The notes under the pieces: generated by a model
Told to the model about the DNA's origin: nothing
The model's database searches: none
Seen by the model: only the letters and a program-made list of their open reading frames with translations
NCBI RefSeq assembly: GCF_011777495.1
Contig: NZ_JAATJS010000004.1
Coordinates: 248,001 to 312,000 of the forward strand
DNA length: 64,000 bases
Source of the DNA: Microvirga terricola
GTDB lineage: Bacteria; Pseudomonadota; Alphaproteobacteria; Rhizobiales; Beijerinckiaceae
Direction of reading: 5' to 3'
Program-made: the position numbers and the translations under genes
In this document: one piece after another, positions 29,929-45,699 of the stretch
How positions within the stretch are numbered: the first letter of the stretch is position 1
How the letters are laid out: each line of letters starts with the position of its first letter

Positions 29929-30011
29929 GAACAACAGCTCCTTCAGGAAAAGTCGCGTTGCTCTTTACGACTGCTACGGTTGCATGTCCATGTGCCGGCG
30001 GTGGTAGGCCC

Positions 30012-31232: not shown

Positions 31233-31274
31233 GGCTCAAAATCCTGGAGCAGACGCTTTGAAATGGTCGTTGGC

Positions 31275-31655
31275 TTATTGTCTCTTTACGGAACCCAGCC
31301 TCTTCGGAACCGCGTTGGGCTCCGGCGCGGGCGTGCCTCCCAATTTAGCGGCGGCAGCACCTGCGGCTTCGTTTTGCGTCCGGATGGCGTCGAGCTCCGC
31401 CTCGACGGCCTTGATCTCATCGGCGGTCTTCGCAGCGGTCGCCCGGCCGGGTTTGGAGGTGCCTATCGGCATATAATCCATCGAAGCGGGCCGAGATTTA
31501 GCAACGAAATCGGGAGTTGCCGCCATGTTCGGCCCCGCCCCGACCGACGCGAGAGCGTCCCGTGTCGGATTCCCGCCTGCGCAGGCGGCAAGACCGGTGA
31601 CGGCGAGAACCGCAAGTCCGGAGATAGCGAGGCGGCGCGGGCTTGAGAAACGCAT
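31275..31655 (-). CDS. Putative lipoprotein, unknown function
   Basis: 126 residues from the ATG at 31655. The N-terminal 'LAISGLAVLAVTGLAACAGG' ends in a lipobox (LAAC), so it should be lipid-anchored. The rest is low-complexity, Ala/Pro-rich, with a short helical segment 'TADEIKAVEAELDAIRTQNE' that may form a coiled coil. No domain recognised. It lies 42 bases upstream of the aminotransferase start on the same strand and is divergent from phaC. Confidence 0.7.
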   Translation of the reverse strand: MRFSSPRRLAISGLAVLAVTGLAACAGGNPTRDALASVGAGPNMAATPDFVAKSRPASMDYMPIGTSKPGRATAAKTADEIKAVEAELDAIRTQNEAAGAAAAKLGGTPAPEPNAVPKRLGSVKRQ

Positions 31656-31776
31656 TTTCAATTCCAAGAATCGTAACATGAGTGAGGCATATCTGATGTA
31701 TGATCGGCTTGCAGGTTAAAATGTCCGAAACGCGGCTCATGAGCAATGGCAGTCGGCCCCGGCGGGAGAGCGCCTT

Positions 31777-33582
31777 ATGAGCACAATGCTCGAAAACGAG
31801 AAGGCACAGGCTTCCACTCCCGATTTCGAGGAGCTGTCGCGCAACATGGCCCGGTTCATCGAAGGGGCCGGGAAAGCCGCCGCCGCCTATTTTAAGCCCC
31901 TTGAGGACCAAACCGCCAAGCCGCGCCTTCCGACTGAAACCGAGGAGGCGATCAAGATCTTCGGTCACATTGCCGAATCGTGGATGTCCGACCCGCATAA
32001 GAGCATGGAGGCGCAGGGCCGCCTCGGAGTCCAGTTCTTCGAACTCTGGGCCTCGGCCCTCAAGCGCGCTCAGGGAGAATCGCCCGAGCCGGTCGCGAAG
32101 CCGGACCCGAGGGACAATCGCTTTCAGGACCCCGAATGGTCCGCCAATCCGATTTTCGATTTCCTCAAGCAGGCCTATCTCATCATCTCGCGCTGGGCTG
32201 AGGAGATGGTCGATGGCGCGGAGGGGATCGACGAGCAGACCCGGCACCGGGCGCAATTCTATTTGCGGCAGATCTCAAGCGCGCTCTCGCCTTCGAACTT
32301 CCTTTTGACCAATCCCGAACTCATCCGCGAAACCTTCCGGCAGAACGGCGCCAACCTCGTTCGCGGCATAACGATGCTCGCCGAGGATATCGAGGCCGGT
32401 GCCGGGGAGTTGCGCATCCGCCAATCGGACCCCACCGGGTTCAAGATCGGCGTCAACATTGCGACAACGCCAGGAAAAGTTATTTTTCGCAATGAACTGA
32501 TGGAGTTGATCCAATATTCTCCGACAACAGATGAGGTTTTGAAGCGCCCTCTCCTGATCGTGCCGCCGTGGATCAACAAGTTCTACATCCTCGATCTGAA
32601 CCCCGAGAAAAGCTTCATCCGATGGGCCGTGTCCCAGGGGCTCACGGTATTCTGCATTTCCTGGGTGAATCCGGATGCGCAGCACGCGGACAAGAGCTTC
32701 GAGCACTACATGCACGAGGGCATTTTCGCCGCGCTCGATGTCATTCAGGAGGCAACGGGCGAGAAGAAGGTAACCGCCATCGGCTATTGCGTCGGCGGGA
32801 CCTTGCTGGCCACCACCCTCGCCTACATGGCAGCCAAACGCGACAAGCGCATCGACAGCGCCACGTTCTTCACCGCGCAGGTGGACTTCACATTCGCCGG
32901 CGACCTGAAAGTTTTTGCGGGCGAGACGCAGATCAAGTCCCTTGAGGCCAGTATGAAGATGCGCGGCTATCTCGAAGGGTCACAGATGGCGAACGCCTTC
33001 AACATGCTACGGCCGAACGATCTGATCTGGCCCTATGTGATCAACGTCTACATGAAGGGTCACGCGCCCTTCCCGTTCGACCTGCTCTACTGGAACTCCG
33101 ATTCCACCCGGATGCCGGCGGCGAACCACGCCTTCTATCTGCGCAACTGCTACCTGGAGAACAAGCTGGCAAAGGGCGAGATGGAAGTCGGCGGCGTCAA
33201 GCTGGGTCTGAAGAAGATCAAAATCCCCATCTTCAACCTGGCGACGAAAGAGGACCACATCGCGCCTGCGCGCTCAGTCTTCGTCGGATCGAAGATGTTT
33301 GGCGGCCCGGTGGAATTCGTCCTTGCGGGGTCGGGCCATATCGCCGGCGTCGTCAACCCCGTCAGCAAGCCAAAATACCAGTTCTGGACCGGCGGCCCGG
33401 TGGAGGGCGAACTGGCGGACTGGGTCCAGAACGCCACCGAGACGCCGGGAACGTGGTGGCCTTACTGGCTGTCATGGATCAAGGCGCAGGCCCCCAAGAT
33501 GGTCCCGGCCAGGGAACCGGGCGGCGGCAAGTTGCCCACACTTGGCAATGCGCCGGGAACCTATGTCTTGATGCGCTCCTAA
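31777..33582 (+). CDS. phaC: Class I poly(3-hydroxyalkanoate) synthase
   Basis: 601 residues, right for class I PhaC. The lipase-like box is 'AIGYCVGGTLLATTLAYMAA' with catalytic Cys338; the triad Asp lies in 'TKEDHIAPARSVF' and His in 'AGSGHIAGVVNP'. 'LLIVPPWINKFYILDL' and 'HYMHEGIFAALDVI' are family landmarks. It polymerises hydroxyacyl-CoA into storage polyester on granules. No phaA, phaB, phaR or phasin gene is beside it. It ends in a 4-base overlap with the convergent DUF3626 gene. Confidence 0.95.
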   Translation: MSTMLENEKAQASTPDFEELSRNMARFIEGAGKAAAAYFKPLEDQTAKPRLPTETEEAIKIFGHIAESWMSDPHKSMEAQGRLGVQFFELWASALKRAQGESPEPVAKPDPRDNRFQDPEWSANPIFDFLKQAYLIISRWAEEMVDGAEGIDEQTRHRAQFYLRQISSALSPSNFLLTNPELIRETFRQNGANLVRGITMLAEDIEAGAGELRIRQSDPTGFKIGVNIATTPGKVIFRNELMELIQYSPTTDEVLKRPLLIVPPWINKFYILDLNPEKSFIRWAVSQGLTVFCISWVNPDAQHADKSFEHYMHEGIFAALDVIQEATGEKKVTAIGYCVGGTLLATTLAYMAAKRDKRIDSATFFTAQVDFTFAGDLKVFAGETQIKSLEASMKMRGYLEGSQMANAFNMLRPNDLIWPYVINVYMKGHAPFPFDLLYWNSDSTRMPAANHAFYLRNCYLENKLAKGEMEVGGVKLGLKKIKIPIFNLATKEDHIAPARSVFVGSKMFGGPVEFVLAGSGHIAGVVNPVSKPKYQFWTGGPVEGELADWVQNATETPGTWWPYWLSWIKAQAPKMVPAREPGGGKLPTLGNAPGTYVLMRS

Positions 33583-34673
33583 CGGTCGGGCGCTCCACGA
33601 TAGACCAGCACATGCCAGAGTTGTTTGAGGTGTTGGGCGGTTTCCGCGGGCGATCCCCAATCGGCCCATTGTTCGGGGTTTCTGCGTAGCGACACGGCGG
33701 CCTCGCCAATCACTGCGGCCGTGATCCACCCCTCACCGGCGATGCGGCGCGCAAGGATAGGCATTGCCGGCCCGCGAAATGTCTCGCAGACGGACGCAAC
33801 CGGCAGGGAAAAGCCTGCGTGCCACCGGAGAGGAATGCCGAAGCGCTCACAAGCTGCCTGCAGGAGCGAGCCGGTCGGCGTCCCACGGAACGAGGGATCG
33901 ACTACCAATTGCTCGACATCGGCATCGAGCCGCAGCGGCCCGTGAATTTGCGCCTCGATATAGTGGTCGAGCAGACGACCGAGAGGGCGCGTCGCGGGGT
34001 CCGGCAGAGCCCCATGCAGCGTATTGGCAAGGCCCTCCAGAAATGCTGGAACCACACCCATTCCCTCGATGCCGGGCCACGCTCCGGCGGCAACAGCCTC
34101 CAGCAATGCCAGGAGAATGCCTTCCATGCGGTCCATCACCCCGACGCGTCCCGTCGGCTTGTGACTGTCCCCGAAGGTGAAAGTGCATCGGCGCAAGACA
34201 GGTTGCCTTAGGATAAGATAGCAGGAGCCGAACCGAGGCGCGGGACCATCCCCGAAGCGCAGAATATCCAGCGCACCGTATTTCGGCCGCTCAACGGCCT
34301 CCACGCCCATAACCTGATACGCGCTACCAAACAGATCGGCCTCCCACAGGTCCCGCTCCCCGCCTGTAAAAGCGCTCAACCCGCCGTTGGAGATGCCCGT
34401 CTCAAACTGGCTGCGATACACACCATCCTCGAAGAGAGCCTTGGCGACGCTCAAACCTCGGGAGCCGAGCCGGTCCGGATGAAAATGAACGGCGACGCGC
34501 GCATCAGTCTGAAGCCGCGATAGAACCGCAGCCCAGAAAGATGGCTTCACACCCCATTCCCCAATCCGCTCGCCCTCGAAGAACCTATCGACGACGGCAC
34601 GAGCCGCCACATGCTCTAGCGCGGCGCGCTGAGCAGGAGACAACTCCTTGAGATCCATTGGAACAGTCATCAC
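33579..34673 (-). CDS. DUF3626 domain protein
   Basis: 364 residues from an ATG at 34673; an earlier in-frame GTG (34754) is only a few bases from the fadL-type terminator and unlikely. The sequence contains 'VYRSQFETGISNGGLSAFTG' and 'WEADLFGSAYQVMGVEAVER', then 'PKYGALDILRFGDGPAPRFG', the signature block of DUF3626. The family's activity is unknown to me; the block is reminiscent of ADP-ribosyltransferase-type folds, which is only an inference. It is cytosolic by appearance and convergent with phaC. Confidence 0.75.
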   Translation of the reverse strand: MMTVPMDLKELSPAQRAALEHVAARAVVDRFFEGERIGEWGVKPSFWAAVLSRLQTDARVAVHFHPDRLGSRGLSVAKALFEDGVYRSQFETGISNGGLSAFTGGERDLWEADLFGSAYQVMGVEAVERPKYGALDILRFGDGPAPRFGSCYLILRQPVLRRCTFTFGDSHKPTGRVGVMDRMEGILLALLEAVAAGAWPGIEGMGVVPAFLEGLANTLHGALPDPATRPLGRLLDHYIEAQIHGPLRLDADVEQLVVDPSFRGTPTGSLLQAACERFGIPLRWHAGFSLPVASVCETFRGPAMPILARRIAGEGWITAAVIGEAAVSLRRNPEQWADWGSPAETAQHLKQLWHVLVYRGAPDR

Positions 34674-34758
34674 CGGCGCAAATCCAATGAGGGCCCCAAC
34701 CAGCGCGATCCTTTCGGCTCCTTCCTGCCGACTGTCATCCGATATTCGCTGCACATAA

Positions 34759-34784
34759 GAAAAAAGGCCGGCGAACTGCCGGCC
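34759..34784 (-). terminator. Intrinsic terminator of the FadL-type porin gene
   Basis: A 7-bp stem GGCCGGC/GCCGGCC with a 5-base loop, followed on the minus strand by six Ts (TTTTTTC). It lies 28 bases past the porin stop. On the plus strand the stem is followed only by TTTCTC. Confidence 0.85.
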
Positions 34785-34811
34785 TTTCTCGTTTCTTCTT
34801 CCTCGCGAATA

Positions 34812-36116
34812 TTAGTTCTTCCGCACGATCGGGGCTGGGATCGCCTTCGCCGGGTTATCCCAGCGATACTTGATCGCAGCCGAAATAATGTCGACCGACG
34901 CATCCACATTCGCCTGAAGCACGACACCGCGGGTCAGGAAAGTCGGGTTGCCAGGCGCGATGTTGATGTTCGTGTTGCCGACCGTGAAGATATGCGCATA
35001 GGACAGATCGAACGAGAGCTGATCGCTCCAATTGTAGGTCGTGCCCAGCGACAGCCAGATGCGATCTGAGTCGGGAAGGCGCGGGCTGCGCGTATGCTCG
35101 TCGATCGGCGAGATTTCGTAGGCGAGACCGGCGCGAACCGTCCAAGCCGGATTGATGATGTATTCGCCACCGACCGAGAAGAACCAGCCATCCTTATAGT
35201 CGAGCGGAATAAACGGCGACTGGGCCAGGAGCGTGCCGGTCAGCTGGTTGGTGACGCGCGGGAAGCCCAGACGGCTCCAGTTCGTCCATTCCACCGTGCC
35301 AGAGAGAGAGAACGCGTCGGTAATGCGCTGGGTCACACCGACCGTAACGGTTTCCGGCAACATCAGATTGGCTTTGATCGGAACACCGAAGTGCTGGAAG
35401 CTGCCTTCGAGCTCCTGTTTCACGGCCGACCGGAAGCCGACGCCGATCGCAGTTCCCGCAAATGGCGTGAAGTTCGCGCCGAGCTGGTAGCCGACGCCCC
35501 AGCTGTCGCCTTCCAGACCGGCGCTCGGAGCGAGCGGGGTCGGTGCAATGGCCGAGAAGAAGCGAACCTTGAAGTACTGCGCGCGGACGCCCGCACCGAC
35601 AGACATCCAATCGTTGACCTTGTAGCCGATGGTCGGGCCGAACTCCGCGGAGAGCACCGACGTGGTCCGGGAATAGATCTGACCGGCCCAGGTGGTGTGC
35701 GGCTTCGTGGTCAGGCCGAACGGCGCATTGGCATTAAAGGCGAGCCAGAGGCGATCGTTGATCTGGAAGCTGGCATAGGAGGCCGGAACGACACCATCCC
35801 GGCCGACATCACCAGCGCCGCCGAGAGCCAGCAGGCCGGGCGGATTGGTCAAGGTCGGGTTGACGTCGGAGGTCGGAATGATGCCGCTGACATGCGACTC
35901 GAACTGCCAGCCGGGCCGCATCGTGATGGTGGCCGGGTTCCAGTACATGGAGGACACGCCCGCGGCACCGTCCGCAACGCCAGCAAAGGCCATGCCGAGG
36001 CCGGTCGCGCTCTGTTCGTGAAGGCCGAAGGCGCCCGCCTGGGCTCCTCCTTGAGCGGAGATGACAGCCGCGAAGGAAACCGCAGCCAGGGTCAAAGAAC
36101 GATTGAAACGGCTCAT
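34812..36116 (-). CDS. Outer-membrane transporter, OmpP1/FadL/TodX family
   Basis: 434 residues with a signal peptide ('LTLAAVSFAAVISAQGGAQA') followed by 'GAFGLHEQSATGLGMAFAG', the N-terminal hatch start of FadL proteins, and 'GVSSMYWNPATITM'. The remainder is beta-barrel-like with alternating aromatic strands and ends in a weakly charged strand. It should admit long-chain fatty acids or other hydrophobic compounds. An AGGACC site precedes the ATG and a strong terminator follows. Its presence near phaC may reflect lipid storage but no operon links them. Confidence 0.92.
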   Translation of the reverse strand: MSRFNRSLTLAAVSFAAVISAQGGAQAGAFGLHEQSATGLGMAFAGVADGAAGVSSMYWNPATITMRPGWQFESHVSGIIPTSDVNPTLTNPPGLLALGGAGDVGRDGVVPASYASFQINDRLWLAFNANAPFGLTTKPHTTWAGQIYSRTTSVLSAEFGPTIGYKVNDWMSVGAGVRAQYFKVRFFSAIAPTPLAPSAGLEGDSWGVGYQLGANFTPFAGTAIGVGFRSAVKQELEGSFQHFGVPIKANLMLPETVTVGVTQRITDAFSLSGTVEWTNWSRLGFPRVTNQLTGTLLAQSPFIPLDYKDGWFFSVGGEYIINPAWTVRAGLAYEISPIDEHTRSPRLPDSDRIWLSLGTTYNWSDQLSFDLSYAHIFTVGNTNINIAPGNPTFLTRGVVLQANVDASVDIISAAIKYRWDNPAKAIPAPIVRKN

Positions 36117-36508
36117 GGAAGGTCCTGCCCTAAATTGGACTGTTCTGATTCTGCCGCGGAACCCGCGTTGAGAGACAGTCTGCCCATGCTTTATTTTTGC
36201 CGCAATCGGTTAATGAGAAACGAACGCGCACGCTTCGCCACCCAATCCCATGCGAATTACGCTGCGCGGCACTGACTTTTACTGTTGCTCAACTTGAAGA
36301 TCTAAGTTGACCAGAGATGGTTCATATATGAACAGCTGTATTTTGCCGACCACAGATCGGCTATTCTATCCGACGTTGCAGGCCCGAAAATTCCACAATT
36401 TGTGTGCTCAAGTGGCAAAACGGCAACATATTTACGTCCAAAAAGTGCGTTGCAGAGGGTTTTGAATCTGTCAGATAGATAATCAAGGCACATGATGAGG
36501 AGCGCAGG
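36117..36508. other. 392-base intergenic region between diverging FadL porin and FAH hydrolase
   Basis: The centre (about 36240-36480) is AT-rich and no credible coding frame is seen; a 63-codon minus-strand frame at 36302-36493 has no ribosome-binding site or family resemblance. It plausibly holds both promoters. GAGGAGCGCAGG just before the FAH ATG is the ribosome-binding site. No hairpin with a T-run was seen. Confidence 0.5.
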
Positions 36509-37402
36509 ATGAAGCTGGTGCGGTTTGGAAAGCCGGGGTGCGAAAAGCCGGGCCTCATCGACGGCAACGGACAGATCCGCGATGCATCGAGCGTCGTCGC
36601 CGACATCAGCAGCGTAACCCTCGGCGAGGGCGCGCTAGCCCGCCTCGGCCAGGTCGACGCAACCACCCTGCCCCTCGCCCCAGCCGGCGAGCGCCTCGGT
36701 CCTTGCATCGGCAAGGTCGGCAATTTCGTCGCCATTGGCCTGAACTATGCCGATCATGCCGCTGAGACTGGCGCGCCGATCCCGGCAGAACCCATCATCT
36801 TCAACAAGGCCCCCTCCTGCATCGTGGGGCCGCATGATGACGTGATCCTTCCGCGCGGATCGCAAAAGGGCGACTGGGAGGTCGAACTCGCGATCGTCAT
36901 CGGCGAGCGCGCATCCTATGTGGGCGCGAACGAAGCGCTGGAGTTCGTCGCCGGCTACTGCGTCTGCAACGACGTGTCGGAGCGCGAGTATCAGATGGAA
37001 CGCGGCGGCACCTGGACCAAGGGCAAGGGCTGCCCGACCTTCGGACCGCTCGGCCCCTGGCTCGTGACGCCGGACGAGATCGCAGACCCGCATAACCTCT
37101 CCATGTGGCTCGACGTGAATAGCGAGCGCATGCAGACGGGGTCGACCCGCACGATGATCTTCAACATCGCGCAGATCGTCTCTTACGTCTCACACTTTAT
37201 GATCCTGGAAGCGGGCGACGTGATCACCACCGGAACCCCGCCGGGGGTCGGCATGGGGATGAAGCCGCAGCGTTTCCTCAAGCCCGGCGATGTGATGAGC
37301 CTCGGGATCGAAGGCCTTGGCGAGCAGCGCCAGCGGGTGATGGCGTTCGAAGGCAGCCTCCTCGACACCAGCCATCCTGGGCACGGACACACGAGGCCTT
37401 AG
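36509..37402 (+). CDS. Fumarylacetoacetate hydrolase family protein
   Basis: 297 residues. The FAH fold is seen from '[20 protein letters not shown]' through '[19 protein letters not shown]', the metal-binding acids in '[14 protein letters not shown]', and '[20 protein letters not shown]', ending '[18 protein letters not shown]'. This branch includes ureidoglycolate lyase and 2-hydroxyhepta-2,4-diene-1,7-dioate isomerase-like enzymes, and the actual substrate is not clear. A strong GAGGAG site precedes the ATG. It overlaps the convergent argC end by 4 bases. Confidence 0.9.
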
Positions 37403-38349
37403 ATCAGGCCCAGCATCAGCTGGATGTTCTGAACCGCGGCGCCGGACGCGCCCTTGCCGAGGTTGTCGAGGCGCGCGACGAGGACCGCGTGACGGTAGGC
37501 GTCGTGCCGGAACACGCGCAGCTCCATCTGATCCGTGTCGTTGAGCGCTTCCGGCTCGATCCGCTCGATGCGCTTGCCGCTATCGACCGTCGGGATCACG
37601 CTGACCTGACCGCCGCCGGCATAGTGCTTCTGAAGGACCGCTTCGAGATCCTCCACCGCAGGCTTGCCCGGCAACAGGTCGAGATGCAGCGGCACGCTGA
37701 CGAGCATGCCCTGGCGGAAATTGCCGACGGACGGAATGAAGATCGGCCGCCGGGTCAGGCCTGTATAGCGCTGCAGTTCGGGCACATGCTTGTGCTCGAA
37801 GCCGAGCCCGTAAAGCTCGAAGGCCGGAGCCGTGCCAGCCTCGTAGGCTTCGATCATCGAACGCCCACCGCCGCTATAGCCGCTGACCGCGTTCACGCTG
37901 ATCGGATAGTCGGCAGGGATGATACCCGCATCCACGAGCGGCCGGATCAGCGCAATCGCGCCGGTCGGGTAGCAGCCCGGATTGGCGACGCGCTCTGCCT
38001 TGGCGATGGCGTCGCGCTGCGCCGGCTCAAGTTCAGCAAAGCCATAGGCCCAGCCGGGGCTGACGCGGTGAGCGGTGCTGGCGTCGAGGATGCGCGGACG
38101 CTTGCCGTTCAGCCCTTCGACGAGGCTCACCGTCTCCCGCGCAGCATCGTCGTGCAAGCAGAGGACGACGAGATCGACCTCGGCCAGAATGTCCCGCTTG
38201 GCGGCCGGATCCTTGCGCAGTTCGGGCGCGATGCTGCGGATCGCGATGCCGGGAATGTCGCGCAGGCGCTCGCGGATGCCGAGGCCGGTCGTGCCCGCCT
38301 CCCCGTCGATGAAAACCGTCTTTACCGCCGTGGTCGCCATGGTCGTCAT
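37399..38349 (-). CDS. argC: N-acetyl-gamma-glutamyl-phosphate reductase, type 2
   Basis: 316 residues of the shorter type-2 AGPR: '[18 protein letters not shown]', '[19 protein letters not shown]', active-site cysteine in '[15 protein letters not shown]', then '[19 protein letters not shown]' and '[13 protein letters not shown]'. It reduces N-acetylglutamyl phosphate in arginine biosynthesis. An ATG nine bases in is an alternative start. Immediately upstream are an Arg-rich small ORF and an intrinsic terminator that together look like an attenuator. Confidence 0.95.
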
Positions 38350-38402
38350 TGCCGATCCGATCTGCCTGTCAGGCCGCTGATATATGGCTTGTGGGAGAGA
38401 AC

Positions 38403-38429
38403 AAAAAAGCCGCGCGGTGGGCGCGGCTT
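38403..38429 (-). terminator. Intrinsic terminator in the argC leader (candidate attenuator)
   Basis: On the minus strand the stem AAGCCGCGC/GCGCGGCTT (9 bp) closes a CCACC loop, and the As pair over the first Ts of a TTTTTT run. It lies 54 bases upstream of the argC ATG and 22 bases past the stop of the Arg-rich ORF. The rpsI terminator lies further upstream, so this one has no other gene to serve. An upstream GCGC...GGCT in the leader can pair with AGCCGCGC as a competing antiterminator (paired by hand). Confidence 0.8.
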
Positions 38430-38450
38430 GCGATCAGACTGGGACAGCCG

Positions 38451-38525
38451 TCATCGCGCTCGCGCAGCGGGAGCGTCCATCATACGTCGGCGGATGGTCG
38501 GCCTGTTTGTCATGAGGCGTTTCAT
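38451..38525 (-). CDS. Arg-rich leader peptide of argC (candidate)
   Basis: 24 codons with 7 arginines, including three consecutive Arg codons CGC CGA CGT at 12-14, then a TGA. An internal ATG at codon 5 (38513) gives a 20-residue form starting MTNRPTIRRR. GTTGACA (-35 at 38544-38549), 17 bases, then CATGAA (38521-38526) and 7 bases place transcription start exactly at that ATG, so the shorter form may be leaderless. The ORF is followed by a terminator before argC. Small size and GC-rich Arg bias make chance possible. Confidence 0.5.
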   Translation of the reverse strand: MKRLMTNRPTIRRRMMDAPAARAR

Positions 38526-38549
38526 GCCGCCGAAGACCCTTGCTGTCAA
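38521..38549 (-). promoter_or_regulatory. Candidate promoter of the argC leader
   Basis: TTGACA, 17 bases, CATGAA on the minus strand; the -35 is perfect and the -10 matches 3 of 6 consensus positions. The -35 forms one arm of a GTCAACG/CGTTGAC inverted repeat (38545-38562), which could be an operator overlapping the promoter. Confidence 0.5.
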
Positions 38550-38574
38550 CGATTCCGTTGACCCGCCGACAAAC

Positions 38575-38603
38575 AAAAAGGGCGGCCCGAGGACCGCCCT
38601 TTT
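38575..38603 (-). terminator. Intrinsic terminator of rplM-rpsI
   Basis: The stem GGGCGG/CCGCCC with an 8-base loop is followed on the minus strand by TTTTTGTTT. It sits about 20 bases past the rpsI stop. The plus-strand side also ends in TTTTC. Confidence 0.85.
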
Positions 38604-38622
38604 CGAAAGGTTTGTTCGACGC

Positions 38623-39099
38623 TTAGCGCTTCGAGAACTGGAAGCTGCGGCGAGCTTTCTTCTTGCCGTACTTCTTACGCTCGACGACGCGCGAGTCGCG
38701 GGTCAGGAAGCCTTCCTTCTTGAGCGGGCCGCGAAGCTCCGGCTCATAGTGGGTCAGCGCCTTGGCGAGGCCGTGACGGACCGCACCGGCCTGACCGGAG
38801 AGGCCGCCGCCGGCGACATTCACGACGATGTCGTACTGGCCATCGCGGCTCGCAACCTGGAGCGGCTGGGCGAGGATCATGCGCAGCACGGGGCGCGCGA
38901 AGTAGACCTCGACCGGACGGTCGTTGATCACGATCTTGCCCGAACCGGGCTTGATCCACACGCGGGCAACGGCGTCCTTACGCTTGCCGGTCGCGTAGGC
39001 GCGGCCCTGCGCATCGAGCTTCTGGACGTGCTTCGGAGCTTCCGGAGCGGCGGCCTGGGCATTCTGGCCCAGATCGGCGAGAGACTGGAGGGTCGCCAT
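38623..39099 (-). CDS. rpsI: 30S ribosomal protein S9
   Basis: 158 residues. The conserved core reads '[20 protein letters not shown]' and '[20 protein letters not shown]', and the C-terminus '[20 protein letters not shown]' closes with the universal 'FSKR' that reaches the P-site tRNA. The alpha-type N-terminal extension (about 35 residues) is present. It starts 2 bases after the rplM stop. Confidence 0.98.
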
Positions 39100-39101
39100 G
39101 G

Positions 39102-39563
39102 TTAGGCTCTCACATTCTTGCTGTTGAGGGCACCCACGTCGAGCGCTTCCGGCTGCTGAGCCGCATGCGGATGCTCAGCGCCACCGTAGACGCGCAGGTT
39201 GCCCAGGATCTGGCGGAAAAGCGGGCCGCGGGGGAGCATGCGCTCCACAGCCTTCTCGACCACGCGCTCGGGGAAACGGCCTTCGAGGATGAAGCGCGCA
39301 GTGCGCTCCTTGATGCCGCCCGGATAGCCGGTGTGATGGTAATACACCTTCTGCTCGCGCTTGCGGCCGGTGAACACCACCTTGTCGGCGTTGATGATGA
39401 TAACGTTATCGCCGCAGTCGACGTGGGGCGTGTAATTCGCCTTGTGCTTGCCACGCAGGCGCATGGCAACGATCGTAGCGAGACGGCCAACCACGAGGCC
39501 GCTTGCATCGATCAACACCCACTTCTTCTCGACCTCGGCGGGCTTCAGCGAAGTCGTATTCAT
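39102..39563 (-). CDS. rplM: 50S ribosomal protein L13
   Basis: 153 residues with '[20 protein letters not shown]', '[20 protein letters not shown]', '[20 protein letters not shown]' and '[19 protein letters not shown]'. It is first in the rplM-rpsI operon. In the upstream leader two hairpins lie downstream of a good promoter, a possible autogenous control element since L13 controls this operon in other bacteria. Confidence 0.98.
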
Positions 39564-39580
39564 CGCGCTGCTTCCCGTTG

Positions 39581-39633
39581 GAGCCCCTATGGGCTCAGGT
39601 TTTGAAAACGATAACCGCCGCGAAATGCGGCGG
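39581..39633 (-). promoter_or_regulatory. Two-hairpin 5' leader of rplM-rpsI
   Basis: On the minus strand, CCGCCGC/GCGGCGG with a 5-base loop (39615-39633) is followed by GAGCCC/GGGCTC with a 4-base loop (39581-39596), 17 bases before the L13 ATG. A promoter TTGACT (39668-39673), 17 bases, TATCCA (39645-39650) predicts transcription start near 39638, so the first hairpin is at the very 5' end. The pattern would suit ribosomal-protein feedback or mRNA stabilisation. Confidence 0.5.
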
Positions 39634-39733
39634 CGAGTGAGGGGTGGATAGTGGGTTTATACGTACAAGTCAACAACCAGAGAAACGTATTAGGGCTTTG
39701 AATCCCTTATAAATCAACGATCTCGACCGATAT

Positions 39734-39777
39734 GGTATGTAAATACCGTATTTGCGGTATCAAAATACCGCAAATAC
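39734..39777. repeat. Tandem GGTATnnnnATACC palindromes, one extended to 13-bp arms
   Basis: GGTAT-GTAA-ATACC (39734-39747) abuts GTATTTGCGGTAT-CAAA-ATACCGCAAATAC (39748-39777), whose 13-bp arms are perfect. Both contain the GGTATnnnnATACC core. The array begins 7 bases after the stop of the secreted-protein gene (minus strand) and ~60 bases upstream of the rplM promoter. It has no T-run. It may be a 3' RNA structure, a dyad operator or a small repeat element; it is AT-richer than its surroundings. Confidence 0.6.
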
Positions 39778-39784
39778 CTTCAGA

Positions 39785-40252
39785 TCATTTCCGACACGCG
39801 CTGACGCCCCCCTTGATCATCCCTTCCCCTCCCCGCCCAGGCACCTCGAAGCCGCCATCCGCGCGGGAGAACCCGATCGGCTGCCCTGATCCAAGATGGA
39901 CGAGGAACGGGCTGTCGACGGGGAGCGTAATGTCGAAATTAAGACCGTTCCCCAATTCCACCACGATGCCGGTGATCCGCTCCGATAAGGCACCAGCGTG
40001 AACGGTCACCTCGATCTTGCCGCCCTCGACGAAGTCGTAGTCGTTGCCGGGAATAGACCCGATCAACTCAACTCCCTTCCGGGCATGGCAAACAATCATG
40101 AGGGCGCGGTCATCCGAGCCGTCCGGCTCGCCGTATTCGATGCGATTCTTTTGGAAGGTTACCGCGTGCCACTGATAACCATCAGCCATGGCCGCCTGCG
40201 CGGCGAGAAACGACGCCAAAAGAGCAGACGCGGACGAAAGGACAGATTTCAT
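39785..40252 (-). CDS. Secreted hypothetical protein
   Basis: 155 residues with a signal peptide ('SSASALLASFLAAQAAMADG'). The mature part is a beta-rich domain ('YQWHAVTFQKNRIEYGEPDG', 'ELIGSIPGNDYDFVEGGKIE', 'IVVELGNGLNFDITLPVDSP') with two cysteines, one in 'MIVCHARKG' and one at the end in 'SACRK', that could form a disulfide. No family recognised. It stands alone, divergent from the GST gene. Confidence 0.72.
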   Translation of the reverse strand: MKSVLSSASALLASFLAAQAAMADGYQWHAVTFQKNRIEYGEPDGSDDRALMIVCHARKGVELIGSIPGNDYDFVEGGKIEVTVHAGALSERITGIVVELGNGLNFDITLPVDSPFLVHLGSGQPIGFSRADGGFEVPGRGGEGMIKGGVSACRK

Positions 40253-40358
40253 AGGAAGTTCGTTGGCCTATATTCCGCTAAAACCTCTACCGTAAACATT
40301 GCATCACAAACCGCCGTGACGGCAACATCATCACGCTCTCTGATTGGAAGGGATTCTT

Positions 40359-40985
40359 ATGGCCGACGAACTTGTCTTCTATACCAATCCCGTGTCGCGC
40401 GGACGCATCGTGCGCTGGATGCTTGAGGAGGTCGGGCGGCCCTATCGGACCGAGCTTCTAGACTTCGGGACAACTATGAAGGCTCCGGCCTATCTCGCGA
40501 TCAATCCCATGGGGAAGGTTCCGGCGATCAAACATGGCGATACGGTCGTGACCGAGGCCGGGGCGATCTGTGCCTATCTGGCGGATGTCTTTCCCGAGGC
40601 GGGACTTGCGCCGCCCCATGGGGATCCTCGGCGCGGCCCCTATTACCGCTGGATGTTTTTCGCAGCGGGGCCGGTCGAGGCGTCCGTCAGCAACAAGGCG
40701 CTCGGCTTCGAAGTGCCGAAGGAGCGGCGCGGAACGATAGGCTATGGCGCGATGGAAGACGTCCTCAACGCGTTGGAATACGCCGTCTCGCAGTCCGAGT
40801 ACCTGGCCGGAGACCAGTTCACCGCCGCCGATGTCTATGCCGGTTCGCAGATCGGCTGGGGCATGATGTTCGGAGCGTTGGAAAAGCGGCCTGCCTTCGA
40901 GGCGTATTGGCAGAGGATCAGCAGCCGCCCTGCAGCCATCCGCGCACGAGAGATTGACGACGCCTTACGTCAGCCGGCGCCCTAA
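40359..40985 (+). CDS. Glutathione S-transferase family protein
   Basis: 208 residues from the ATG at 40359 with GGAAGGG upstream; a longer in-frame start 5 codons earlier overlaps that site. It has a thioredoxin-like N-terminal domain ('LVFYTNPVSRGRIVRWMLEE', 'YLAINPMGKVPAIKHGDTVV', 'TEAGAICAYLAD') and an all-helical C-terminal domain containing 'YLAGDQFTAADVYAGSQIGW'. It probably conjugates glutathione or handles peroxides. It overlaps the convergent thioesterase end by 4 bases. Confidence 0.93.
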   Translation: MADELVFYTNPVSRGRIVRWMLEEVGRPYRTELLDFGTTMKAPAYLAINPMGKVPAIKHGDTVVTEAGAICAYLADVFPEAGLAPPHGDPRRGPYYRWMFFAAGPVEASVSNKALGFEVPKERRGTIGYGAMEDVLNALEYAVSQSEYLAGDQFTAADVYAGSQIGWGMMFGALEKRPAFEAYWQRISSRPAAIRAREIDDALRQPAP

Positions 40986-41419
40986 CGCCGGTCGGGGATC
41001 GAATAGGTCCCCGTCGCGTGGCAGACGATATCGGAGCTACCTTCGGAGAAGATCGACACCTCGCCCACCGCCAGCCGCCTGCCAAGTTTCAGCAGGCGGC
41101 ATTCCGCGATCAGCGCCCGCTGGTCCGGCTTCCTCATGAAGTTGAAGTTCAGGTTCGTAGTCACGGTGAGAGCGACCGGGCCGATTTGGGCGAGGATCGC
41201 GGCGTAGAGCGCGAGGTCCGCGAGGCCCATCATCGCGGGGCCTGAGATCGTGCCGCCAGGACGCAAATGGCGGTCGTGATAGTCCATCCGCATGGTCGCG
41301 GAGAGCGGTCCGATGGCCTCGATGTGATAGGTCCGGCCACCTTCGTGGATCTGCGGGAACTCCCGGTCGAAGAAGGCCCGCAATTCCTCGAGGGTCATGA
41401 TCGGTTGGTGCGATGTCAT
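40982..41419 (-). CDS. PaaI-family thioesterase (hotdog fold)
   Basis: 145 residues from the ATG at 41419 (another at 41398 possible); a longer frame would run over the divergent CoA-binding gene. Hotdog-fold landmarks: 'MRMDYHDRHLRPGGTISGPA' followed by 'MMGLADLALYAAILAQIG' with the catalytic-type Asp, and 'TTNLNFNFMRKPDQRALIAE'. It likely hydrolyses acyl-CoA; the substrate is unknown. Confidence 0.88.
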   Translation of the reverse strand: MTSHQPIMTLEELRAFFDREFPQIHEGGRTYHIEAIGPLSATMRMDYHDRHLRPGGTISGPAMMGLADLALYAAILAQIGPVALTVTTNLNFNFMRKPDQRALIAECRLLKLGRRLAVGEVSIFSEGSSDIVCHATGTYSIPDRR

Positions 41420-41470
41420 CAGCAGGCGGCGCTCATTGAATTGCCCTGCCTTATCCCATACGTTTCCATC

Positions 41471-41998
41471 ATGAACCACGACAATTACCCGAACGATTAT
41501 ATCCGCGGCATCTTGCAAAGCGTGAAGACCATAGCGCTGGTGGGGGCCTCACAGAATTCCGCGCGACCGAGCTGGATCGTGATGAAGTATCTGCTGGAGC
41601 GTGGATATGACGTCATCCCTATCAATCCGGGTCTCGCGGGCCAGGAACTTTTGGGCAAGCGGGTCTATGGAAGCCTCGCCGAAGTCCCCGGCCCTATCGA
41701 CATGGTCGAAATCTTCCGCAACTCGGAGGCTGCTGGGCCCATCACCGACGAGGCGCTGGCGCTGAACCCGCTGCCGAAGGTGATCTGGATGCAGCTTTCG
41801 GTCCGCAACGACGAGGCCGCCAAGCGGGCCGAGGCCAAGGGCTTACAGGTCGTCATGGACCGCTGCCCGAAGATCGAGTTCGGACGTCTCTCCGGGGAAA
41901 TCTCCTGGCAGGGCGTCAATTCTCGGATGATCAGCGCCAAGAAGCCGATTTTGTCAGGCAAGGGCTTTCAGAAGCTGAGCCTCAACCGGCCGCGATAG
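41471..41998 (+). CDS. CoA-binding protein (YccU-like)
   Basis: 175 residues from the ATG at 41471; the frame is open further upstream but the family start fits here. The Rossmann-like CoA-binding domain shows 'VKTIALVGASQNSARPSWIV', 'GYDVIPINPGLAGQELLGKR', 'VDMVEIFRNSE'-type 'IDMVEIFRNSEAAGPITDEA' and 'VVMDRCPKIEF'. These single-domain proteins relate to succinyl-CoA synthetase alpha but lack a catalytic histidine. It is 72 bases upstream of metY on the same strand; that gap contains a regulatory palindrome, so metY has its own promoter. Confidence 0.9.
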   Translation: MNHDNYPNDYIRGILQSVKTIALVGASQNSARPSWIVMKYLLERGYDVIPINPGLAGQELLGKRVYGSLAEVPGPIDMVEIFRNSEAAGPITDEALALNPLPKVIWMQLSVRNDEAAKRAEAKGLQVVMDRCPKIEFGRLSGEISWQGVNSRMISAKKPILSGKGFQKLSLNRPR

Positions 41999-42002
41999 CT
42001 CC

Positions 42003-42040
42003 CTTGACGGGCGAACGTTTCGTTCTTTAAATAGAACGAT
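42003..42040 (+). promoter_or_regulatory. metY promoter with second copy of the sulfur-regulon palindrome
   Basis: The 22-mer at 42019-42040 (TTCGTTCTTT, AA, ATAGAACGAT) matches the 11948-11969 site at 20 of 22 positions and both are followed by CC. CTTGAC (42003-42008), 17-18 bases, then TTTAAAT (42026-42032) forms a promoter whose -10 lies inside the palindrome, the classic position for a repressor. An extra half-site GAACG (42013-42017) forms GAACG-TTT-CGTTC with the left arm. The metY ATG is 30 bases further on. Confidence 0.7.
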
Positions 42041-42070
42041 CCGAATATTTCCTTGGGAGAGGCGCCCGCA

Positions 42071-43354
42071 ATGACCGATCGTTTGCCCGGTTTCAACACG
42101 CTTGCCATTCATGCAGGAGCGGCCCCGGACGCCGCGACCGGCGCGCGGGCCACACCGATCTATCAAACGACATCTTTCGTTTTCGACGACGTGGATCACG
42201 CCGCCTCTCTGTTCGGGCTCCAGGCTTTCGGCAACATCTATTCCCGTATCGGCAACCCCACCAACGCCGTGCTGGAAGAGCGCATCGCAGCTCTTGAGGG
42301 CGGCACCGCGGCACTCGCGGTCGCCTCGGGCCACGCTGCCGAGTTCCTCGTGTTCCACACGCTGCTTCAGCCAGGCGATGAATTCGTTGCCGCCAAGCAG
42401 CTCTATGGCGGCTCGATCAACCAGTTCAATCATTCCTACAAGAACTTCGGCTGGAACGTCGTCTGGGCCAATGCGGATGATCCTGCGAGCTTTGAGGCCG
42501 CGATCACGCCGAAGACCAAGGCGATCTTCATCGAGTCCATCGCGAATCCGGGCGGCGTGATCGTCGATCTGAAGGCCATTGCCGCCATCGCGAAAAAGCA
42601 CCGCATCCCGTTCATCGTCGACAACACCATGGCGACGCCATACCTGATCCGGCCCTTCGAGCACGGTGCGGACATCATCGTGCATTCGGCGACCAAGTTC
42701 TTGGGCGGCCACGGCAACTCCATCGGCGGCCTGATCGTCGATGGCGGCACGTTCAATTTCGCGGGTGACGACCGCTATCCGATGCTCTCGAAGCCGCGTC
42801 CGGAATATAACGGCATGGTCTTGGGCGAGACCTTCGGCAATTTTGGTTTCGCTATTGCCGCGCGCGTGCTCGGCCTGCGCGACCTTGGACCGGCGCTATC
42901 GCCCTTCAATGCTTTCCTGATCCTCAACGGCATCGAAACGCTGCCGCTCCGCATGCAGCGCCACTCGGACAACGCGCTGGCGGTGGCGGAACATCTGGCA
43001 TCCCACAGCAAGGTCTCGTGGGTCAGCTATCCGGGCCTGCGTTCCGACCGCTATCACAACCTCGCCAAGCAATATTGCCCCAAGGGCGCGGGCGCGGTGT
43101 TCACCTTCGGTCTAAAGGGCGGCTACGAGGCGGGCGTGCAACTGGTGTCGAACCTCAAGCTGTTTTCGCACTTGGCCAATATCGGCGACACCCGCTCGCT
43201 GGTGATCCACCCCGCCTCCACCACGCATCGCCAGTTGACCGACGAGCAGAAGAAGCAGGCCGGCGCGGGCCCCGAAGTGGTGCGCCTGTCCGTCGGACTC
43301 GAGGACAAGGAAGACCTGATCGACGATCTCAATCAGGCTCTCGACGCGGCCTAG
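42071..43354 (+). CDS. metY: O-acetylhomoserine sulfhydrylase (aminocarboxypropyltransferase)
   Basis: 427 residues from the ATG at 42071 (a TTG at 42053 lies in the ribosome-binding region GGGAGAG). Cys/Met-metabolism PLP enzyme: '[20 protein letters not shown]', '[20 protein letters not shown]', the PLP lysine in '[20 protein letters not shown]', and '[20 protein letters not shown]'. The long form (about 430 aa) and the [12 protein letters not shown] context favour O-acetylhomoserine sulfhydrylase, making homocysteine directly from sulfide; the shorter MetZ is less likely. Its promoter carries the sulfur palindrome. Confidence 0.93.
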
Positions 43355-43374
43355 ACTAGCCCCTTGTTTGAGCA

Positions 43375-43414
43375 TCGGATTTCTCCGAAAAGTGGATTCC
43401 ACTTTTCGGTCCGA
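43375..43414. repeat. Short interspersed palindromic repeat
   Basis: CCGAAAAGTGG-ATT-CCACTTTTCGG (43385-43409) has perfect 11-bp arms; outer TCGGA/TCCGA (43375-43379, 43410-43414) can extend the stem with a bulge. From memory this CGAAAAGTGGattCCACTTTTCGG motif recurs in Rhizobiales intergenic regions. It lies 20 bases past the metY stop and may act as transcript end or as an inert repeat. Confidence 0.75.
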
Positions 43415-43509
43415 GCTTTAGGGCGGTGGACAAGGCCTCGGGACTTCGTCCGGGCTCAACGCTTTGCACTTGAGCCCGGAAAGACGGAGAAGTTCCCCGT
43501 AAAATCTCT

Positions 43510-44463
43510 TTATGGAAAATACCGCGCCAGGTTGCGTCTGATCCGCGGCAGCGGGTCCTCCCCCTTCGGGGGATAGGCGAAGGGCTGCCCGGTGATCGTC
43601 TCGAAGGCGCGGACATAGACGGCCGAGGTCTGATCGATCAGGTCCTGCGGGATCGGCGGCAGCGCCTCCTTATAGGGGTCGCAGCGGGCGACCACCCAGT
43701 TGCGCACGAAATCCTTGTCGAAGGATTCAGGCTTCTCGCCGGCGGCGAAGCGCTCGGAAAAGCTCTCGGCGAACCAGTAACGGCTCGAATCCGGCGTGTG
43801 GATTTCGTCGGCGAGGAAGATGCGGCCCTCGGCGTCGGTGCCGAACTCGTATTTGGTGTCGGCGAGGATGAGGCCGCGCTCGCGGGCGAGCTTCTGGCCA
43901 CGAGCGAAGAGCGCGAGCGCATAAGCCGAGACAATGTCCCATTGCTCCTGCGTCAGCAGGCCGCCCTCGACGATCTGGCGTTCGGAGAGCGGCTCGTCAT
44001 GGCCGCCGTCGAAGGCCTTGCTCGTCGGCGTGATGATGGCCTGCGGCAGCTCCTGATTGTCGCGCAGGCCGTCCGGCAGGGTGATGCCGTACATCTCGCG
44101 CTGGCCCTGCTTGTAGAGCGTCAGGATCGAGGTTCCGGTCGTGCCGGCCAGATAGCCGCGCACAACGATCTCGACCGGCAGGATCTCGAGGCGCTTGCCG
44201 ACCACGACGTTGGGATCGGGATATTCGACGACATGGTTGGGGCAGATGTCGGCGGTCTGCTCGAACCAGTAGCGCGCCGTCTGGGTCAGCACCTGGCCCT
44301 TCAGGGGGATCGAGGCGATCGCACGGTCGAAGGCGGAAAGCCGATCGGTCGAGATCAGGATGCGCTTGCCATCGGGCAGGTCGTAGTTCTCGCGCACCTT
44401 GCCGCGATAATAGTTCGGCAGCTCTGGGATGACGGCTTCGTGAAGAGGCAGATAATCGGACAT
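43510..44463 (-). CDS. purC: Phosphoribosylaminoimidazole-succinocarboxamide synthase, long form
   Basis: 317 residues from the ATG at 44463; an 81-codon upstream extension passes through a repeat and is not coding-like. SAICAR synthase motifs: '[20 protein letters not shown]', '[20 protein letters not shown]', '[20 protein letters not shown]', '[20 protein letters not shown]', '[12 protein letters not shown]'. It makes SAICAR in purine synthesis. The ~300-residue type is one of two PurC forms seen in Rhizobiales. Flanked on both sides by interspersed repeats. Confidence 0.95.
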
Positions 44464-44528
44464 GGGCGGAACTTGCCTCTTTGACTGAGCGCGAGGGCAG
44501 GCGCCGGAGCGCCGTTCAGCTGCTCTTC

Positions 44529-44633
44529 TAGAGCATTTTCGAGTGAAGTGGGTACCGGTTCGCGTGAAGAAAATGCAATCAAACAAAGAGATGGAGCATT
44601 TCGGCAATTTCAGGGAAACGCGGAAATGCTCTA
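44529..44633. repeat. 105-bp interspersed repeat with 10-bp terminal inverted repeats
   Basis: The element runs from TAGAGCATTT to AAATGCTCTA, exact 10-bp inverted termini. Internal GAAGTGGGTACCGGTTCGCG and AATCAAACAAAGAGATGGAG match, from memory, a repeat widespread in Rhizobiales intergenic spaces. It can fold over its whole length. It sits 66 bases upstream of the purC ATG, in its presumed promoter region, and carries no gene. Confidence 0.75.
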
Positions 44634-44655
44634 AGGGCCGCAGCAATCGACGACC

Positions 44656-44686
44656 CAAAATGAAAGGGCCCGGCATGACCGGGCCC
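44656..44686 (-). terminator. Terminator of the ParA-like gene
   Basis: An 8-bp stem GGGCCCGG/CCGGGCCC with a 5-base loop, followed on the minus strand by TTTCATTTT. It begins about 30 bases after the ParA-like stop and separates that gene from purC. Confidence 0.75.
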
Positions 44687-44715
44687 TTAAACATTTCGAG
44701 TAGCAAGAATCTGGA

Positions 44716-45393
44716 TCAGGCCGCCGCGCGTCCCGAGCCGGCCTTCTTGTAGGCGGTGTGGATAGCGCTGAGCGAACGGTCGAGTGCGTTCCAGAGGCGC
44801 TGAATTTCTTCGGCGGCGTGAGAGTCCGGCTCGAACTCCTTCGCGCCCTCGCCGGCGGCCAGCGCCAGGGAGAAATCGGCCCGGTGGGTGATCTGCCCCG
44901 ACCAGACGGGAACCTTGAGCGCATTCAGCGCGCCACGGGCGTCCGACACGATGGCGACTTCCGAGTCATGACGCTTGGCCGGCGCGCCGTTGATGACCGC
45001 GGCGTAGGGCTTGCGCAGTTCGCGGGCAATCTGAACGGTGTCCTGAAGCGCCGCGATGTCGAAGAGGCTCGGCCGGGTCGGGATGATGACCAGCGTCGCG
45101 TGCTTGATCGCCTCGACGACGACGTGAGATTTGTTCGGCGGAGTATCGATGAGCACCCACTGGTACCCATCGCGCTTGGCTTCTTTCAAGGTGTCGTCGA
45201 GAGACCGCGTTCCGTGCCTCAGCGCCAGATCGGCCTGACCCCGAAGCTCATGCCAGAGCGACAGCGAGCCCTGGGGGTCGGCATCGATCAGCATCGTCGG
45301 GCGGGAAGGATTAGCGATATAGCTCGCAAGATGAGCCGCGAGTGTGCTCTTGCCGGAGCCACCTTTTCGCGAAGCAAAGACCAGCACGTTCAT
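44716..45393 (-). CDS. ParA/MinD-family P-loop ATPase, unpaired
   Basis: 225 residues. The deviant Walker A is 'ASRKGGSGKSTLAAHLASYI', switch region 'MLIDADPQGSLSLWHELRG', and Walker B 'WVLIDTPPNKSHVVVEAIKH'. The C-terminus is short, without a ParA HTH or membrane-targeting helix. No parB, parS or minC/E is nearby, so it is an orphan of the kind that positions protein cargo such as chemosensory or flagellar complexes; the target is unknown. An inverted repeat lies upstream. Confidence 0.88.
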   Translation of the reverse strand: MNVLVFASRKGGSGKSTLAAHLASYIANPSRPTMLIDADPQGSLSLWHELRGQADLALRHGTRSLDDTLKEAKRDGYQWVLIDTPPNKSHVVVEAIKHATLVIIPTRPSLFDIAALQDTVQIARELRKPYAAVINGAPAKRHDSEVAIVSDARGALNALKVPVWSGQITHRADFSLALAAGEGAKEFEPDSHAAEEIQRLWNALDRSLSAIHTAYKKAGSGRAAA

Positions 45394-45699
45394 GCCCGAC
45401 TCCCAATAACCCTGTTCCTACGACCCTGCGCAGTTGAGTGAAGCATACATTAACATTGCTTCTATGTAGCAGAGCAACCCTTTAGCCCGCGACTCCGCCG
45501 CCAAACGCTGTGCATATCTCCGCCCAAGCGGCCCTGACGGCGCGGTTCCGCTTGGCACTGTAAGAGGCCGGCCTCTTCCCGTCTGCCGCGCTTCGCGCCG
45601 CAGGGGCCCATTCTCTCAAAGCAGGGCTTCTGCAACTGGCCAGTCTTCGACTAGATTTGACGCAAGCTGTTTTTCCTTCAACGCCCTTTTGTATCTCGC
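45394..45699. other. 306-base intergenic region between diverging ParA-like and LysE genes
   Basis: It holds GAAGCA-11-TGCTTC (45440-45462), an inverted repeat 47 bases upstream of the ParA-like ATG, as a possible operator. A 76-codon minus-strand frame at 45482-45712 runs into the LysE start, lacks a ribosome-binding site and resembles nothing. No terminator or RNA gene was seen. Confidence 0.45.

Follow-up and report, generated by a model that had tools for sequence, protein, structure and literature searches.

The leader between rpsI and argC in Microvirga terricola is very probably (a probability of about 0.87) a leaderless ribosome-mediated transcription attenuator that ties argC expression to charged tRNA-Arg. 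It lies at positions 38403..38549 (minus strand) of the window, the whole stretch of 64,000 nucleotides that was analysed. An arginine attenuator before argC had been proposed in an initial annotation of this DNA, and the proposal is supported by conservation, a link to arginine genes, codon bias and alternative folds evaluated with controls.

Anatomy and conservation of the argC leader

The features of the locus, in the order of transcription, are the following.

38623-39099, minus strand: rpsI, the gene upstream of the leader
38544..38549, minus strand: -35 element TTGACA, read in the window; all 30 sequences of the wider alignment A2 have TTGAC
38521..38526, minus strand: weak -10 element CATGAA, 17 nt past TTGACA; often CATANA in relatives
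38513, minus strand: putative transcription start, the A of the leader ATG, from the promoter-to-ATG spacing across leaders
38451..38513, minus strand: leader ORF MTNRPTIRRRMMDAPAARAR, 20 codons plus TGA; start and frame conserved in alignments A1 and A2
38446..38503, minus strand: 1:2 hairpin that the free RNA is predicted to form (nt 1-84 fold at -27.9 kcal/mol); it includes the Arg codons as well as the 5' arm of the antiterminator
38484..38492, minus strand: control codons CGC CGA CGT (Arg-Arg-Arg); CGA-CG is invariant or nearly so in A1
38453..38465, minus strand: antiterminator 5' arm GCGCGAGCGCGAU, predicted from the truncated fold under the Arg-stall mask and from the swap test; overlaps the end of the leader ORF
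38421..38434, minus strand: antiterminator 3' arm AUCGCAAGCCGCGC, predicted from the truncated fold and the swap test; overlaps the terminator 5' arm
38407..38429, minus strand: intrinsic terminator hairpin AAGCCGCGC-CCACC-GCGCGGCTT, 9 pairs (7 GC), conserved in A1 and A2
38403..38406, minus strand: U-tract after the terminator stem (T6 if two paired T are included)
37399..38349, minus strand: argC, N-acetyl-gamma-glutamyl-phosphate reductase (TIGR01851 argC_other; NCBIfam 400.8 bits, cut-off 229.85)

The window ArgC belongs to the short type (TIGR01851) and has its nearest relatives in Microvirga. The end of argC overlaps a convergent ORF, so that argC is probably transcribed alone. The terminator reported between rpsI and argC is present on the minus strand (38429-38407, with the U-tract to 38403), and the 24-codon ORF with seven Arg codons, including CGC CGA CGT, was found at 38525-38451 (minus strand). 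TTGACA, 17 nt, CATGAA, 7 nt and the in-frame ATG at 38513 can all be read in the sequence as described. The leaderless 20-codon form suggested earlier is upheld by the aligned relatives: they start at ATG 38513, which makes this form the conserved one. The ATG of the 24-codon form sits inside the -10 box, and this form was rejected as the conserved start.

The promoter claim stood in part. Both boxes are present, but a sigma-70 scan calls no promoter because CATGAA is a poor -10, and support comes instead from comparison. The distance from the start of TTGA[CT] to the ATG is 35-39 nt in 67/67 collected leaders (36 nt in the window); 40 of these 67 were chosen with a spacing rule, but 19 came from a search with model R1, which holds no promoter, and all 19 show the spacing equally well. 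TTGAC and the ATG are both invariant in A2. This spacing suggests that transcription starts at the ATG itself, and the leader apparently has no Shine-Dalgarno site.

Of the other genomes searched, 36 belong to the genus, and conservation was examined at 40 other Microvirga argC loci (L031-L070). The leader ORF is kept in 37 of the 40, and RR, RRR, RRRR or RCR is found in 36 of these 37; in L040, Arg-Trp stands in place of Arg-Arg. The first automatic rule recovered 35 of the 40 loci, and L040 and L054 were added by inspection. No leader was seen on inspection upstream of argC in L048, L062 and L065, which come from three Microvirga species. Within the genus, the proposed check of orthologous argC leaders for an Arg run and a terminator was therefore favourable (37/40 loci), and conservation of Arg codons, frame and terminator also recurs before argC and argD in other lineages. 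Alignment A1 (36 leaders, including four that are not from Microvirga) is invariant or nearly so at CGA-CG, in the first two of the aligned Arg codons, at GCG..GCGATGA, around the stop codon, and in the terminator arms. CGACG lies in the frame of the leader ORF in 64 of the 67 collected leaders and was not found in three. The runs are RR to RRRR in 65 of the 67 and RCR in two, in a set partly selected on Arg content.

Two loci of the genus deserve separate mention. L054 (Microvirga flocculans) has an intact leader (RRR) and an insertion in the terminator loop, at about 1657-1900, which reads as partly palindromic and offers a natural test of whether termination survives. L065 carries another small ORF between rpsI and argC.

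Leaders in other lineages and their target genes

Model R1 was built from 36 leaders (Microvirga and the four others), is blind to the downstream gene and was run on 397 genomes of the order. At E <= 0.01 it gave a match in 229/397 genomes; many among the matches listed cover the terminator part only (model positions from about 80), and only full-length matches with E < 1e-8 were counted. There were 21 of these, the window's own match excluded, and 19 are leaders of the same design; the other two, L129 and L130, were rejected as false matches. The 19 leaders precede argC_other in six cases (L112, L113, L114, L116, L117 and L123), the other type of argC in eleven (L118-L122, L124, L126-L128, L131 and L132), argD in one (L115) and a Rid-family gene in one. 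The target family was assigned by profile for L112, L118, L115 and L125, and by tblastn with the window ArgC or by eye for the others. The two types of ArgC fall into separate NCBIfam families; where they align, along part of the protein, identity is about 30-33%. Model R2, which includes the promoter, added the argC leaders L151, L152 and L189-L191 and the leader L149 before an argD fragment; argC targets of two families and argD targets were identified by NCBIfam. The leader before the Rid-family gene (L125, G260:C2:1441-1562, minus strand; PF01042) has an Arg run and the same design, and its target is not an arginine biosynthesis gene.

Two genomes carry separate leaders at both kinds of gene: G310 at argD (L115) and argC (L199), and G416 at argC (L112) and argD (L200). 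Within each genome the paired leaders differ in sequence, and the Arg run, the promoter spacing and the terminator are kept. The gene upstream of the leader varies by lineage; it is rpsI in Microvirga and in L123, and neither rpsI nor rplM was found near the leader in seven regions of 7.5-9 kb from other genomes. The leader thus travels with the arginine gene.

These loci bear on the reading of the element as a stand-alone sRNA gene, or a small leaderless mRNA, that lies upstream of argC and acts in trans, its terminator being an ordinary 3' end. The element does have a promoter and a terminator of its own, action in trans is known for rnTrpL, the RNA of the trp attenuator in rhizobia (PMC7298713), and the copy before the Rid-family gene fits an attenuator less well. 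However, the element stays at argC or argD though the upstream genes change, it precedes a distantly related ArgC type as well as argD, the second copies in G310 and G416 sit at arginine genes, and the alternative pairing described below is centred on the stop codon of the ORF. We consider a stand-alone RNA improbable, and attenuation of the downstream arginine gene the preferred reading.

Several matches were set aside. In the window's own genome, R1 matches L141 and L146 are not leaders (the terminator-only matches L142-L145 and L147 were left out), and the next R2 match has E = 0.004. The weak R2 matches L153-L168, L192, L193 and L196, the R1 match L203, and L169/L202, whose downstream gene was read as crcB, were judged by eye to be non-members. 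The reading of R2 matches by eye left out L197, L198 and weak rows of G057, G179, G289 and G406.

A leader variant occurs in Bradyrhizobium and Tardiphaga (for example MINAATIIIARRRRAIAVWAVVRV in L077), where it precedes a PaiB-like gene followed by argC. The PaiB-like gene lies upstream of argC in 25/25 named loci, and the leader is present in all 12 loci that extend past it, 11 by the filter and L108 (RRSR) on inspection; the same form was found in L194, L348, L380 and L381, and the PaiB-like gene was identified by profile (PF04299) in L194 only. Leaders of this type (L076, L077, L080, L088, L092, L095, L099, L100, L101, L103, L108, L110, L194, L348, L380 and L381) were excluded from the 67. 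Their runs are mostly ARRRR, with SRRR in L088, VRRRR in L092 and ARRSR in L108. The U-tract of the hairpin is weak, and termination may therefore work differently there. In L081, L087 and L097 (at about position 740), an ArgC of the longer type, identified by eye from how it begins, apparently lies between the PaiB-like gene and the short type, which gives tandem argC genes in Bradyrhizobium.

Two further loci have a similar appearance. L195 (G336:C1:685919-686080, minus strand) has a leaderless ORF MIKTAATFVYFYYVTSIPAAA and a terminator directly before tyrS (TIGR00234), and this arrangement resembles a tyrosine attenuator built on the same leaderless plan. L201 (G412:C11:22568-22735, minus strand) has a leaderless-looking ORF MITNSCAALSSKKGPHPGTRDRRAR and a terminator before a gene read by eye as a member of the DapA family.

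Codon choice, predicted folding and proposed mechanism

A single tRNA-Arg, with inosine in its anticodon, reads CGA, CGC and CGU (CGA poorly), and this presumably holds for the group used in the leaders. The Arg runs (n = 190 codons) contain 85 CGA, 63 CGC and 42 CGT and no CGG, AGA or AGG; these counts are not independent, as the leaders are related. In eight ORFs of the window, 153 Arg codons comprise 88 CGC, 30 CGG, 24 CGT, 5 AGG, 4 CGA and 2 AGA, so that the share of CGA is 45% in the Arg runs compared with 4/153 in the window genes.

The peptide itself is variable. The 67 leaders encode 63 distinct peptides of 16-22 residues with a variable N-terminal half, and no conserved peptide beyond the Arg codons, of the kind that marks the fungal arginine attenuator peptide (AAP), was found among them. 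This matters for nascent-peptide control, by which free arginine would make the Arg-rich peptide stall the ribosome, as in AAP or TnaC. An effect of arginine would readily be expected at an Arg run, and Arg-x-Arg is frequent before the stop; but the peptides vary outside the run (63 different sequences in 67 leaders), the switch in folding coincides with the run, and the constraint on its codons (no CGG or AGR) points to reading by a tRNA. Such control seems slightly less probable still than a stand-alone RNA, and we return to stalling for want of charged tRNA-Arg.

For attenuation, we infer the transcription start, translation, stalling and arginine response of the argC leader as follows. Transcription would begin at the A of the leader ATG, with the ribosome trailing the polymerase. 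If arginyl-tRNA for CGA, CGC and CGU is scarce, the ribosome would halt at Arg-Arg-Arg and cover segment 1; segment 2 (around the leader stop) could then pair with segment 3 (the terminator 5' arm), giving read-through into argC. If arginine is ample, a ribosome at the stop codon would cover segment 2, the terminator (3:4) would form and an RNA of about 110 nt would be released. Arg codons are also found directly before the leader stop, where Arg-x-Arg is common, and a stall there would favour termination, which counts against attenuation.

A further observation concerns the end of the ORF, CGATGA (window 38456-38451). CGA is often the last sense codon before TGA, in relatives too, and CGATGA overlaps the antiterminator arm; a slow CGA-UGA end may help to hold the ribosome over segment 2.

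Folding was computed with transcript nucleotide n equal to window position 38514-n and with a ribosome mask that reached from 18 nt upstream to 14 nt downstream of the A-site codon's first base. In the window the antiterminator (nt 49-93) has an energy of -22.8 kcal/mol and the terminator -16.2 kcal/mol, next to -27.9 kcal/mol for the 1:2 hairpin. The antiterminator first suggested was roughly right; the computed pairing joins GCGCG-A-GC-GCGAU (38465-38453) with AUCGC-AA-GC-CGCGC (38434-38421). Placing the A-site on the run's first Arg codon gave a mean terminator probability of 0.36 (median 0.07) over the 67 leaders, and moving it six to twelve codons further gave 0.92-0.93 (fewer leaders at the far end). 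When the sequence before the terminator was shuffled (41 of the 67 leaders), the difference between stop and Arg positions was 0.02, compared with 0.40 observed, and the largest of 30 shuffle-set means was 0.13. The 36 Microvirga leaders gave terminator probabilities of 0.21 at Arg and 0.94 at the stop, 31 of them shifting as expected by over 0.1 and none the opposite way. The effect is weaker in the 31 leaders from elsewhere (0.54 at Arg, 0.87 at the stop), of which 19 changed as expected (>0.1) and two in the opposite direction.

The window leader behaves differently in its full-length and truncated forms. In the equilibrium fold of the full RNA the terminator is kept at nearly every ribosome position, including the Arg codons (0.97). 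In the RNA truncated before the 3' arm, 0.77 of the 5' arm is paired upstream when the ribosome stands on the Arg run, and 0.34 when it stands at the stop. A mutually exclusive antiterminator with the ribosome on the control codons is thus found in silico, for the window leader only in the truncated RNA; the prediction matches what co-transcriptional attenuation needs.

Pairing of the two antiterminator arms was also examined by an arm-swap test. In 20 leaders, the cognate arms summed to -457.9, compared with a permuted mean of -411.8 (sd 10.4), and 0 of 20,000 permutations was as good; the 20 include three Microvirga leaders and the pairs L112/L200 and L115/L199 and so do not represent 20 independent lineages. 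In the whole swap set of 38 leaders, in which a wrong L093 arm from the terminator finder was left, there were 8 for which at least half of the foreign arms paired as well as the cognate arm or better. By eye, two bases, the one preceding GCGA and the one following CGC, covary in several lineages (C-G in L070, U-A in L115 and L112); the window has C and A at this site. The near-invariant terminator and a hairpin of 3 pairs were all that RNAalifold returned on A1, with a covariation term of -0.01; the terminator shows almost no covariation because it barely varies.

Distribution, known systems and significance

The leader is patchily distributed. In the class sample it was found at 5 of 49 TIGR01851 loci, all of which were examined (among the five is L246, with a weak hairpin), and at none of the 55 TIGR01850 loci examined out of 90 found. 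In the order sample it was found at 7 of the 46 TIGR01851 loci examined (47 found; G062 left out) and at 4 of the 82 TIGR01850 loci taken (101 found), all four from genus g20; this last sample includes L359, with only 15 nt of upstream sequence. Genomes that the model searches had already brought up are included in the class and order counts. The scans took ATG ORFs of 10-34 codons that contained RR and three or more Arg and had a -35-like TTGA[CT] or TTGCC about 29-41 nt upstream (one class scan also TTGA), and with such fixed settings other leader designs are missed, as the failure of the filter on L108 shows. One class-sample scan gave four rows on the argC strand, of which one was accepted by eye, and five on the opposite strand; the order-sample scan gave eight rows (five loci accepted by eye) and two on the opposite strand. 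In the order and class surveys most argC loci are without the leader, which limits its generality, not its reality.

The initial annotation held that chance was not excluded, which is true from the window alone; conservation across genera excludes it. That the locus has no regulatory role, being a chance GC-rich ORF with a spare terminator shielding argC against read-through from rpsI, is very improbable: random GC-rich ORFs are Arg-rich, the opposite-strand control of the scans also gives RR ORFs (five and two rows) and the element is absent from most relatives surveyed, but its Arg codons, start and promoter are invariant or nearly so over many genera and it recurs at loci with no rpsI found nearby.

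A search for the arginine repressor ArgR (PF01316) gave no match in 41 genomes (the window's own and 40 relatives) and was positive in 9 of 14 control genomes. According to a regulon survey (PMC5343134), 62 of 196 proteobacterial genomes have ArgR. The 41 genomes therefore need an arginine sensor of another kind, for which the leader is a candidate in the lineages that carry it. Rfam 15 gave no match at the gathering score in window positions 30000-46000; in 20 loci it gave only a ROSE element (L194:3011-3107) and a tRNA (L098:3996-4079), both outside the leaders.

Enterobacterial attenuators (trp, his, leu, ilv, thr and phe) work by ribosome stalling, an antiterminator and a terminator, and the same logic is proposed for the argC leader, which differs in that it seems to have no Shine-Dalgarno site. 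To our knowledge, arginine is not among the specificities of these classical attenuators. The fungal AAP, a conserved peptide that stalls eukaryotic ribosomes at high arginine, is likewise encoded by an upstream ORF controlling an arginine gene; unlike it, the argC leader has a variable peptide and a bacterial terminator.

The closest likeness is to the leaderless trpL attenuator (rnTrpL / peTrpL) of Sinorhizobium meliloti and other rhizobia, as described in PMC7298713 and PMC10117765. Both have a run of cognate codons, a mutually exclusive terminator and antiterminator (in the argC leader by prediction) and a biosynthetic gene downstream, both occur in Alphaproteobacteria, and the ATG that forms the RNA 5' end in trpL would do so in the argC leader. 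The argC leader differs in having arginine in place of tryptophan, control codons limited to CGA, CGC and CGU, and argC or argD as target. The uORFC-8-2 motif before cysS in Rhodobacterales, as described in PMC8632094, resembles the argC leader in being alphaproteobacterial and in having a leader ORF with tandem cognate codons and a terminator; compared by this description, it differs in its amino acid, cysteine, and in its target, an aminoacyl-tRNA synthetase gene.

No bacterial arginine attenuator was found among the titles and abstract openings listed from a collection of open-access literature, a scope that covers few subscription papers, nor is one described in the available parts of PMC10117765, PMC8632094, PMC2965389, PMC5343134, PMC7298713 and PMC4046766. 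On these comparisons the argC leader is filed as a variant of ribosome-mediated attenuation that would work like the leaderless rhizobial trp attenuator, with a predicted response to arginine. It appears somewhat probable that it represents a new arginine-specific class, leaderless and reading CGA, CGC and CGU, which Alphaproteobacteria devoid of ArgR have on argD and on argC of two distant families, with tRNA-Arg charging as the sensor.

If this is true, the charging of tRNA-Arg, and not a repressor, is the arginine sensor in these bacteria, and the released RNA of about 110 nt and the Arg-rich peptide would be free to act in trans, as rnTrpL does. Arginine would be added to the amino acids under leader-peptide attenuation, and the restriction to CGA, CGC and CGU would show codon choice used to read one isoacceptor. 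Annotators are given a leader to mark before argC and argD, for which no Rfam family matched. The leader offers a concrete and easily tested candidate answer to how arginine is sensed without ArgR in several lineages of Alphaproteobacteria.
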